From Actinomycetota bacterium (GTDB lineage: Bacteria > Actinomycetota > Thermoleophilia > RBG-16-64-13), in NCBI GenBank assembly GCA_016278725.1, contig JADQBG010000015.1, forward strand, positions 1 through 64,000: 64,000 bases of DNA. Reading direction: 5' to 3'. The translations under genes and the position numbers were made by a program. Shown in pieces: positions 37,201 to 40,433 of the stretch. How positions within the stretch are numbered: position 1 is the first letter of the stretch; the number at the start of each line of letters is the position of its first letter. The notes under the pieces were generated by a model. The model was not told the origin of the DNA and made no database searches. It saw only the letters and a program-made list of their open reading frames with translations.

Positions 37201-37249
37201 TTGCCCACGCCGCCGGTTCGCGAGATGATGATATCTATGAATCTAGATA
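37201..37249 (+). promoter_or_regulatory. Promoter and inverted-repeat operator over the arsR start
   Basis: TTGCCC (37201-37206) and GATGAT (37224-37229) are 17 bases apart. The predicted transcription start is then at about 37236, next to the ATG at 37237, so the message would be leaderless or nearly so. TATCTA (37232-37237) and TAGATA (37244-37249) form a perfect 6-bp inverted repeat with a six-base spacer across the start codon, matching ArsR-type operators and suggesting autorepression. The -10 is only a fair match. Confidence 0.55.
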
Positions 37250-37596
37250 CCTCCATCCCTGGCAACGGAGCGGATTCGCTGGCCGCATTCTTCAAGACTC
37301 TCAGCGAACCCGCCCGCCTGCGCATCATCATGGCGTTGACCGACGAATGCCGGCCGGTAACCGAGGTAGTCCGGCTCACCGGTCTCCCCCAACCCCTGGT
37401 CTCCCACCATCTGCGCATCCTCCGCGACGCCGGGTTGGCCCGCGGCGAGCGTCGCGGGGCCTACGTTTTCTACTGACTGCGCTCGGGGGCGGTTCGTGAA
37501 ACCGTAATGACCGGGCGCGAGGCCCTGGCCAGCCTCGAGCAGGCCTCCGCGGCACCGGCCCCGGCCCTCCCGAGCAAGGCCCGAGGAAGCCGATGA
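37237..37596 (+). CDS. ArsR-family regulator with in-frame UGA, candidate selenoprotein
   Basis: Winged-helix ArsR protein (ALADPSR-type motif as TLSEPARLRIIMALT, recognition helix LPQPLVSHHLRILRDAGLARGER). UGA at 37474-37476 interrupts it at residue 80, directly after GAYVFY where relatives continue with the last wing strand and C-terminal helix. Beyond the UGA the frame continues LRSGAVRETVMTGREALASL and stops at 37594-37596, overlapping the next ATG (ATGA), as expected for a real coupled gene end. A hairpin with a CGUGA loop begins 13 bases downstream of the UGA. With readthrough the protein is 119 residues; without it, a 79-residue truncated form. A C-to-T nonsense mutation of an Arg CGA codon is the main alternative. 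Confidence 0.7.
37490..37504 (+). promoter_or_regulatory. Candidate SECIS hairpin after arsR UGA
   Basis: CGGTT (37490-37494) pairs perfectly with AACCG (37500-37504) around the loop CGTGA, 18 bases between UGA and loop. Bacterial SECIS elements are small hairpins in the coding region with a G/U-containing loop about 16-37 bases after UGA. Loop sequence, stem length and spacing are the same as after the thioredoxin-like UGA at 38911. Confidence 0.6.
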
Positions 37597-38696
37597 GCGA
37601 AGCCCCGAGCTTGACCGAAGCCTGTTCGGTTTGCGGCAGCTCTCTCGAATACCTCGACCGGGCGGTGGGCGCGGTCTGCACGCTCTGCGGTACGGCCGAA
37701 AGCGGTCACGTGCGCTGCCCGGAGGGCCACTATCTCTGCGAAGCCTGTCACGGCCGGGGCGTCGAGGCGCTGATTCGGGGCACGCTCTTGGAATCAAAGG
37801 AGACCGTCCCCACCCGGCTGGCCGAGGAACTGCTCGAACTACCCCAACTCCCCATGCTGGGTTGCGAACACGCGCTTATCGCCGGCGGAGCCCTGATGGC
37901 TTCGCTGAGGAACCGCGGGTTGGGGGTCAGCCAGGCGCATGTAGATGAGGTTCTGGTGCGCAGCAAGCGCCAGGCCGTCGGCGCCTACTGCGGATTGACC
38001 GGAGTGTGCGGAGTAGTACCCGCCCTCGGCGCCTGCTACAGCGTCTTGGTCGGGGGTCAATGTGGCAAAGGACCGGAGACCCGTGGGGCGATGGAGCTGG
38101 TTTCCCGCCTGGCCGCGGTTACCGCCGCCGAGGCCGACCCGGGCTGCTGCAAAGCCTTCGTCAGAACGGCTTTGATCGCCACCGAGCTCTACCTCGAGGA
38201 GAAGTTGGGGATCGCGGCGACGGAACCGGTTGCGGCCGTCTGCGCGCACAGCGACCGCCATCCCCACGGCTGCAGGGGACCGCTATGTTCGTACCATCCC
38301 GAGGCGGACAAGAAGGCCCGGCCGATCTCGCCAACCAGCCAAGGAGGGCCGATGATGACGAGCCAAACCGGCGGAACCGAGCATCCCAGCACCGCTACCC
38401 ACGCCCAGGACCGATACGACGAGTTCTTTGAGTTCGCCTACGCCGACGGAGCCCTCGACCGGCGCACCAAGATCCTGATCGCCTTGGGGGCCGGACTCGG
38501 TGCGGGCTGTGCTCCCTGAACCTCATACTGCCTCTCGGTGGGGAGAGAGCTCGGCATAACGGAGGCGGAATTCGACGAAGCGGTGCACCTCGCCATGACC
38601 GTCGGCGCGAGCAAGGCCTTGATGTTGGCGCGCGCCGAGAGAGGCGCGCTCGGCTTCGCCGCGGCAGCGGTGGTGCCGGGGAGCGAAGCCGGCTGA
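37593..38696 (+). CDS. DUF5714 protein fused in frame to an AhpD-like selenoprotein
   Basis: The first about 250 residues match DUF5714: four Cys-pair N-terminus (CSVCGSS, CTLCGTA), CPEGHYLCEACH, LGCEHALIAGGALMASLRN, GAYCGLTGVCGVVPALGACYSVL, DPGCCKAFV and a terminal HPHGCRGPLCSYHP. There is no stop before the AhpD-like domain, whose own ribosome site and ATG lie at 38341-38357. In that domain UGA (38517-38519) gives C-A-P-U, residue 309 of the fusion. The frame continues to TGA 38694-38696, about 367 residues. A fusion protein, an internally initiated short protein, or both may be made. The ATG overlaps the arsR stop (ATGA). Confidence 0.72.
38355..38696 (+). CDS. AhpD-like (carboxymuconolactone decarboxylase family) selenoprotein, internal start
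   Basis: Starting at ATG 38355 behind a strong AAGGAGG (38341-38347), the 113-residue product is a small AhpD-like domain: YDEFFEFAYADGALDRRTKILIALGAGLGAGCAP, then UGA as residue 55, then TSYCLSVGRELGITEAEFDEAVHLAMTVGASKALMLARAE. The UGA falls on the second Cys of the AhpD CxxC (CAPU), the nucleophile position in AhpD-type peroxidase or disulfide chemistry. AhpD-like selenoproteins with CxxU are an established bacterial selenoprotein family. The same bases are part of the longer DUF5714 fusion. Confidence 0.72.
38532..38547 (+). promoter_or_regulatory. Candidate SECIS hairpin after AhpD-like UGA
   Basis: CTCTC (38532-38536) pairs with GAGAG (38543-38547) around the loop GGTGGG, starting 18 bases after the UGA. 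The stem is short but lies at the right distance and has a GU-containing loop, as in bacterial SECIS elements. Confidence 0.5.
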
Positions 38697-38862: not shown

Positions 38863-39156
38863 ATGGCCCCCACCCTGCCCCATATCGACCTGATCTCCAA
38901 AGGCCCCTCGTGAGTGCTCTGCAATCTCGCGCGTGACGCGATGGCCGCGATCGAAACCGAGAACCCCGGGCGCTTCACCTGGACCATGCTGGACGCCTCC
39001 ACCCGGGACGGGGTCAAGCGCCTACAGGAGCTTCGCCCCGCCGCCGGACGGCAGATCCCCGTCCCCGGAGTCCTCATGGACGGGGAGATCGTCTTCGACA
39101 ACATTCCCGAAATGGAAGAGTTCAGCGAGTGGCTGGCGGGCCAAACCGGCGTCTGA
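38863..39156 (+). CDS. Thioredoxin-like selenoprotein (UxxC)
   Basis: A 97-residue thioredoxin-fold protein if UGA at 38911-38913 is selenocysteine 17: MAPTLPHIDLISKGPS-U-VLCNLARDAM. This places U-V-L-C where small thioredoxins have CxxC. The later GRQIPVPGVLMDGEIVFDNIPEMEEFSEWL carries the cis-Pro segment and last strand/helix. AAAGGAGG (38851-38858) is an excellent ribosome site for ATG 38863, so truncation to 16 residues would be pointless, which argues for readthrough. It probably acts with the AhpD-like protein as its reductant. A 166-base GC-rich gap precedes it. Confidence 0.78.
38927..38941 (+). promoter_or_regulatory. Candidate SECIS hairpin after thioredoxin-like UGA
   Basis: TCGCG (38927-38931) pairs perfectly with CGCGA (38937-38941) around the loop CGTGA, which starts at the 19th base after UGA. 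Loop and spacing are identical to the hairpin after the arsR UGA. Confidence 0.62.
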
Positions 39157-39223: not shown

Positions 39224-40069
39224 TTAGGAGCCCGCCTTTCGCCCGGTTACGAGCACGCTCGCCACCTTGCCCTCCAATACCGACGCTGCCCTTTGCAGCA
39301 AGTCGTCCCGATGCCCGTTTTCGCCGTCGTCGACGAGTTCGGAACCCAGCAGTTCGCGCAGCTGAACGATGTCGTAGACCAGCCGCTCATCGATACCCAC
39401 TTCATCGAGACCCGCGGAGCGGAGCCCCTCCAGGTATTCCTGCTCGGAGACAGCGCCCGCGATGCAGGACGAGTAGAGATCAGCATCCTCGCGCACCCAG
39501 TCGGGCAAGTCCTCGGCCACCAAATCCGAGATTCTCAGGCGGGCACCCGGGGCCATCGCGCGCGCGATCTCGGCGAAGACCCGAGGCTTATCGGGTGACA
39601 GATTGACCACGCAGTTGGAGATGACCACGTCCACCGTCCCGGTCTCGACCGGCAGGTCCTCGATGTAGCCCTGTCGCACCTCGACATTCTCGTAGCCGGC
39701 TGCGGCGATGTTCCGGCGCGCCCGGTCGAGCATCTCCTCGGTCATATCGACGCCGATCACCCGGCCTTCGGGTCCCACCTTCTCGGCGGCAAGCAGCAGG
39801 TCGATTCCCGCTCCGCAACCCAGATCGAGCACGGTCTCGCCCGGGCGCAGCTCGCTGAAAGCGGTCGGATTCCCGCAGCCGAAGGAATTTTCCACCGCAT
39901 CCGCGGGGAGCGCCTCCAGTTGGGACGCCTCATAGCCGGCGCTTTGCACGACCGTTCCCTTCTGCCGCGGCTCGCCGCAGCAACCCGGGCCGCAGCCGCA
40001 TCCGCTGTTGATCGCCCTGGTGTAGGCCTCGGATACCTGCCGCCTGATGTCGTCGCTACTTCTCTCCAT
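39224..40069 (-). CDS. arsM: Arsenite S-adenosylmethionine methyltransferase (ArsM)
   Basis: A 281-residue ArsM. The SAM motif [20 protein letters not shown] (80-99) and the three arsenite-binding cysteines are present: Cys65 (SFGCGNP), Cys153 ([12 protein letters not shown]) and Cys202 (SSCIAGA), matching the As(III)-binding triad of the family. An extra Cys-rich patch ([10 protein letters not shown], 23-32) lies near the N-terminus. It methylates As(III) to methylated arsenicals. It overlaps arsR by 14 bases, so the two are coupled. ATG 40069 follows GGAGGAAGGG. Confidence 0.93.
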
Positions 40070-40433
40070 GGTTCCCTTCCTCCGACGATGCTGCGGGACA
40101 ACAAGATTCGAATGCGTCGGCCAGATTGCGCAGGTAGCGGACGAGCCCTCCGGTCTCCAGCCGATACCAGACCTCCCGGCCTCTCCTCTCCGACTCGACC
40201 ACTCCCGCCTCACGCAAAATGGTGAGGTGGCGAGAGACCACGGAGAGATCTTGCGGGCAGCAGGTGCCCACCTCGGTAACGCGAAGCGGCCGCCCGGCCG
40301 AAGCCAGGCTACTCAAAATGGCGGCTCGGCTGGGGTCGGCCAACGCCTTGAAAAGTTCCACCGCGATCGGTTCGCGGAGACCCTCGTTCTCCCCCTCCGG
40401 GCAATTGTCTAGGTTGCACGCTTGCACATTCAT
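40056..40433 (-). CDS. arsR: ArsR-family arsenic-responsive repressor
   Basis: A 125-residue ArsR/SmtB winged-helix protein. ALADPSRAAILSSLAS and the recognition helix LSVVSRHLTILREAGVVESERRGREVWYRL are clear. Cysteines at 6 and 11, the vicinal pair 58-59 just before the recognition helix (GTCCPQDLS), and a C-terminal CC are candidate As(III) ligands. It controls the downstream arsM. The promoter and operator at 40420-40468 place the transcription start at the ATG, so the message is probably leaderless. Confidence 0.92.
   Translation of the reverse strand: MNVQACNLDNCPEGENEGLREPIAVELFKALADPSRAAILSSLASAGRPLRVTEVGTCCPQDLSVVSRHLTILREAGVVESERRGREVWYRLETGGLVRYLRNLADAFESCCPAASSEEGNHGEK

Follow-up and report, generated by a model that had tools for sequence, protein, structure and literature searches.

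The ArsR-family gene examined here lies in a 64,000-nucleotide stretch of DNA (the window; contig JADQBG010000015.1, positions 1 to 64,000) from an Actinomycetota bacterium (assembly GCA_016278725.1), and its sequence indicates that it almost certainly encodes an ArsR/SmtB repressor in which an in-frame UGA, codon 80, is read as selenocysteine (Sec) by means of a downstream hairpin resembling a bacterial Sec insertion sequence (bSECIS). Taken as a whole, the data are quite likely best explained by an autoregulated repressor, here called Sec-ArsR, whose sensor is made up of Cys38 and Sec80. The gene occupies positions 37237..37596 of the forward strand, where all features described below lie unless otherwise stated, and specifies 119 residues; codon 80 is the TGA at 37474-37476, directly after the peptide GAYVFY, and the frame terminates at the TGA at 37594-37596, sharing the letters ATGA with the downstream open reading frame (ORF), which it overlaps. 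An initial annotation of this DNA, made from the letters alone, had described a frame that runs through the UGA and ends in this overlap, and re-reading of the sequence confirmed it. Further in-frame ATG codons at 37225 and 37228 represent possible earlier starts of the gene.

Conservation of codon 80 was followed in homologous genes. A search within the family and order to which the window's genome belongs revealed seven genes with TGA at this exact codon, among them six relatives sharing 45-86% identity with the window's ArsR; these genes scored 160-177 bits and the next-best ArsR 66 bits, leaving a clean gap. A scan of named genome contigs uncovered further TGA forms in Bacillota (L042 and L048), Actinobacteria (L046), Armatimonadetes (L049), Chloroflexi (L050), and Pseudomonadota (L052), and wider genome searches added three more (L142, L143, and L191), for a total of 16 distinct TGA genes, 15 intact and one decayed (L050), with phyla (Actinomycetota, Bacillota, Chloroflexi, Armatimonadetes, and Pseudomonadota) assigned from record labels. 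Six other homologues carry Cys (TGC) at site 80, i.e., L041, L043 (Streptomyces hygroscopicus), L045, L047, L051 (Conexibacter), and L171, and the Cys homologues carry on past this site in frame, their sequence remaining similar. Arg was found at site 80 nowhere in the clade, and neither TAA nor TAG was ever seen there among the homologues; ArsRs outside the clade have Arg, Ser, Glu, or Ala. The initial annotation had proposed looking for Cys or UGA at this position in related genomes and took uniform Arg among relatives as the outcome that would speak against Sec; the opposite was found. One group of the tree (support 90/92) unites the TGA forms with the Cys form L041, which is nested inside it, as expected of a Sec-to-Cys change. 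TGA in the homologues of other organisms, together with Cys homologues at the same site, is the pattern by which a bacterial selenoprotein is recognized. A copy in L050 (3986-4388) has UGA at both 38 and 80 and is fused to a methyltransferase fragment; it was rejected as a real variant and attributed to decay, as its start codon is absent, the downstream methyltransferase is fragmentary, and the genome has no SelA and no above-cut-off SelB. A second, diverged UGA-form ArsR (L044), ending in TAG, is present in the same genome as another (G010), and the ORF next to it resembles MtaA/URO-D, by eye only.

The published requirements for a bSECIS element are a loop of 3-9 nt with G within its first two positions, a stem of 4-16 bp, a UGA-to-loop distance of 16-37 nt, and an energy of -7.5 kcal/mol or lower (PMC13188914). 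The window's hairpin, CGGTT-CGTGA-AACCG (37490..37504), has a 5-nt loop (CGTGA) with G in second place, a stem of 5-6 bp, 18 nt between UGA and loop, and an energy of -12.5 kcal/mol over 39 nt, in agreement with the hairpin and spacing initially annotated; the annotated identity of loop and spacing with those in a nearby thioredoxin (Trx)-like gene also held, the latter hairpin being TCGCG-CGTGA-CGCGA after the UGA at 38911. In each TGA gene examined, a hairpin follows at equal spacing, and its five-base loop has G in second place. Over 15 homologous sequences the stem covaries, with 98.7% of the pair cells standard and both sides changing in three of the five pairs, a score not attained in any of 500 shuffles; all five pairs are formed in 12 of 13 genes tested and four in the remaining one. 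In the Cys homologue L041 (4226-4270), the first arm of the hairpin is kept and the second is lost (CGGTC/GATGG), making it likely, from its sequence, that this is a fossil SECIS, and the other tested Cys forms retain just two of the five pairs. Scanning the window against Rfam gave no family match. Because TGA is kept in 16 distinct homologues and the stem covaries, conservation of the in-frame UGA is, at the sequence level, well beyond chance.

The machinery for Sec insertion is present in the window's genome, with a tRNA-Sec scoring 74.9 bits and with SelA (464 bits) and SelB (320 bits) encoded by neighboring genes on contig C18. SelA and SelB are above cut-off in 10 of 12 UGA-form genomes, and SelA is absent from three of five Cys-form genomes, including that of Conexibacter. 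The encoded protein belongs to the ArsR/SmtB family by curated models, scoring 49.5 bits with PF01022 (HTH_5; cut-off 22) and 74.1 bits with the NCBIfam model HTH_metalloreg (NF033788; cut-off 55). Its AlphaFold2 model (pLDDT 90.6) has helices and a beta-hairpin in the order expected of a winged helix, with the C-terminal helix present, and the nearest solved folds are SmtB, CzrA, BigR, and SqrR. Residue 80 falls in strand beta3 (76-81) of this model, the last strand of the wing, which is where the initial annotation had put it. The whole of the modeled C-terminal helix (84-105; block pLDDT 84-96) is encoded 3' of the UGA, so that an annotation halting at this codon would truncate such regulators just ahead of it. 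Conservation past the UGA, outside the hairpin, follows the frame, with a mean BLOSUM score of 0.59 versus -0.89 and -0.81 in the other two frames.

Several observations weigh against decoding of the UGA as Sec. Sec80 itself is predicted from the gene. A test of codon positions after the UGA in close pairs gave a weak signal, the tail being short and variable and its bases constrained by the hairpin. Given the amino acids encoded, a hairpin of this kind is expected by chance in 16-23% of cases per gene, and that of L044 fails the bSECIS energy limit. SelA and SelB were not found in two of the 12 TGA genomes, those with the decayed gene L050 and with L052, which comes from a metagenome bin on a contig of 4.3 kb; the presence of SelA in UGA versus Cys genomes differs in the expected direction but not significantly (p = 0.12).

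The residue at site 80 appears to be paired with Cys38 (codon 37348..37350), which is invariant in the family. Of 23 proteins with Cys or Sec at position 80, 21 have one of these residues at position 38 as well, compared to 3 of 124 other ArsRs; the p value of 3e-20 is overstated since related sequences are non-independent. The family alignment contains no invariant Cys besides that at 38 (and Cys/Sec at 80), which suggests a two-ligand site or an Se-S switch. Cys38 is placed just ahead of strand beta1 (39-40) in the AlphaFold2 model, and because beta1 pairs with beta3 in the winged-helix fold, residues 38 and 80 are probably close in space. Based on their strict co-occurrence and the Sec/Cys exchange, Sec80 and Cys38 likely form a thiol-selenol sensor site.

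An operator-like palindrome, TATCTA-tgaatc-TAGATA, is found at 37232..37249, overlapping the ATG start codon. With two mismatches or fewer allowed, it has one match in the window, where 0.05 would be expected, and with one mismatch or fewer it is the sole copy in the window's genome (G000). In three other genomes (G017, S. hygroscopicus [G025], and G026), the sole copy of TATCTA-N6-TAGATA is likewise at the start of the orthologue, so this unique palindrome is common to two Sec-form and two Cys-form genomes; in another branch, ATATAAA-N6-TTTATAT is located just upstream of the ArsR gene. A palindrome unique in the genome and placed at the gene start supports the predicted DNA binding and, as a sequence feature, indicates what would be a dedicated, autoregulated operon.

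Altogether, these features are consistent with a mechanism in which a dimer of the repressor would sit on the palindrome over its own gene start and shut its own operon, including the genes of an MbdU-like and the Trx-like selenoprotein, a direction of regulation that we infer. A soft metal(loid), e.g., trivalent (methyl)arsenic or mercury, would then bridge Cys38 and Sec80, altering the wing sheet and releasing the DNA. That a soft metal(loid) or organometal(loid) bound at the Cys/Sec pair is what frees the repressor has about an even chance of being correct, the ligand being suggested by context; the broader proposal of a selenium-based metalloregulatory switch, one that would respond to soft or methylated metal(loid)s and govern operons for selenoproteins and methyltransferases, is slightly favored. 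The initial annotation had considered that the residue might bind arsenic or sense thiol/selenol redox, a role that we still infer; it is favored by the strict link with Cys38 and by neighbors of metal(loid) type.

Of the other explanations, a redox switch survives best, though we regard it as rather unlikely. Here, oxidation by peroxide, polysulfide, or an organic oxidant would join Cys38 and Sec80 in a selenenyl-sulfide and release the repressor, with the Trx-like protein and its UxxC motif serving as the reductant. The family has just two invariant Cys/Sec residues, the UxxC Trx-like and CxxU AhpD-like selenoproteins share the operon, and the nearest folds include redox-sensing BigR and SqrR; however, the neighbors across lineages are mainly of metal(loid) or methyltransferase type (ArsM, MduS, DUF2284, and MerTP), and the Trx-like gene does not accompany the ArsR gene consistently. 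It is improbable that the UGA instead reports selenium status, whereby scarce selenium would yield a 79-residue fragment without the C-terminal dimerization helix and repression would be lost, with Sec itself sensing nothing. The position of modeled helix 84-105, entirely beyond the UGA, fits this idea, but the Cys homologues, three of them in genomes lacking SelA, retain the site together with Cys38, and two of them also the operator, which argues that the residue's chemistry is important; it would also seem wasteful to lift the repression of selenoprotein genes at times of selenium scarcity. Termination at the UGA, giving a 79-residue ArsR product with the hairpin as an unrelated mRNA element, agrees with the location of the whole helix-turn-helix (HTH) domain match before this codon and with the weak codon-position signal past it in close pairs, yet it is very improbable and was rejected on account of the in-frame continuation of the Cys homologues and the frame conservation outside the hairpin, to which are added the lack of any TAA or TAG at the site and a hairpin whose spacing and loop fit bSECIS. 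The recent CGA-to-TGA nonsense mutation offered as a rival in the initial annotation, or a sequencing error, gains from Arg being common at site 80 in other ArsRs but has a negligible probability and was rejected, as the same TGA is conserved in homologues from independent assemblies of several phyla, accompanied by the covarying hairpin, in a clade without Arg.

Sec-ArsR resembles the ArsR/SmtB metalloregulators (NF033788; SmtB, CzrA, CadC, and ArsR) in fold, HTH, size, and the palindromic operator at the gene start; unlike other ArsRs, it has a UGA-encoded Sec predicted on the last wing strand and paired with Cys38. To our knowledge, the ligand sites described for ArsR proteins involve alpha3, alpha5, alpha4C, or N-terminal regions and not positions 38 and 80, and we know of no description of a Cys-plus-Sec sensor site on the wing sheet of these proteins. 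The thiol-redox repressors BigR and SqrR share with Sec-ArsR the ArsR fold and two key cysteines, which, by a profile offset, probably map elsewhere than 38/80; the BigR model NF040642 scored 39.2 bits against a cut-off of 155. The second-best NCBIfam match is TsoR (NF045707), an ArsR-type regulator named with the Tso selenoproteins, at 60.1 bits, below the curated cut-off of 115. The selenoprotein catalogue lists the Tso selenoproteins and has no entry for TsoR itself as a selenoprotein (PMC13188914). Consistent with the initial view that a Sec-containing ArsR would be very unusual, this 2026 catalogue of 119 prokaryotic selenoprotein families has no HTH regulator, its sole "putative regulatory protein" being FmdB (PMC13188914). 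In the literature searched, we found no earlier account of a Sec-containing ArsR or regulator, although Haft and Tolstoy 2025 and Haft and Gwadz 2023 might mention one. The ArsR family is known; the UGA/Sec form with its proposed Cys38 partner appears to be new. Most selenoproteins known so far carry metals or are enzymes of redox chemistry or methyl transfer. If our reading is true, this would be the first Sec-containing HTH transcription factor, and through such a repressor the 21st amino acid would gain a role in the control of genes. The operator-like site, natural Cys variants (one from Streptomyces), and short sequence make the question of a selenium versus sulfur sensor directly testable.

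Downstream of the ArsR gene are two further candidate selenoprotein genes. The first (37593..38696) encodes an MbdU-like protein with a DUF5714 domain (127.9 bits) and an AhpD/CMD domain (41.1 bits), with UGA at 38517-38519 in a CxxU motif and its own hairpin, CTCTC-GGTGGG-GAGAG, 17 nt 3' of the UGA; it scored 290 bits with the NCBIfam MbdU model, under the cut-off of 600. Its CxxU motif sits in the AhpD domain, while the DUF5714 part reads Cys-Cys (GCCKAF) at a place where Cys-Sec may occur in catalogued MbdU. The second (38863..39156) encodes the Trx-like protein, with UGA at 38911-38913 in a UxxC motif, and scored 51.9 bits with the HUIPC Trx-like model, below the cut-off of 105.

The MbdU-like and Trx-like pair of neighbors occurs in the window and, by similarity, in L037-L040. 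An MduS-like methyltransferase is the neighbor in L041, L043, L046, L051, and L180, in some together with DUF2284, and an ArsM-like methyltransferase in L049 and L052, with MerTP also in L049; in L181, an MtaA/URO-D methyltransferase is found together with MbdU beside the ArsR gene. A small SHOCT protein is encoded near the ArsR gene in L041, L042, and L048. MbdU, MduS, and ArsM-type selenoproteins, reportedly Haft and Tolstoy families, adjoin Sec-ArsR in several lineages; they are enzyme-like or metal-binding, whereas Sec-ArsR is a predicted DNA-binding regulator. As read from sequence, these neighbors share, across lineages, a theme of metal(loid) or methyl-metal(loid) chemistry. In L048 (4599-4910) and L180 (3460-3705), the UGA-form ArsR is followed by small Met-rich proteins, possibly metal-binding, that have no match in Pfam. 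In the window, the minus strand (39224-40433) carries, facing the Sec operon, an ordinary second ArsR with Arg at the site and, beside it, an arsenite methyltransferase of ArsM type.
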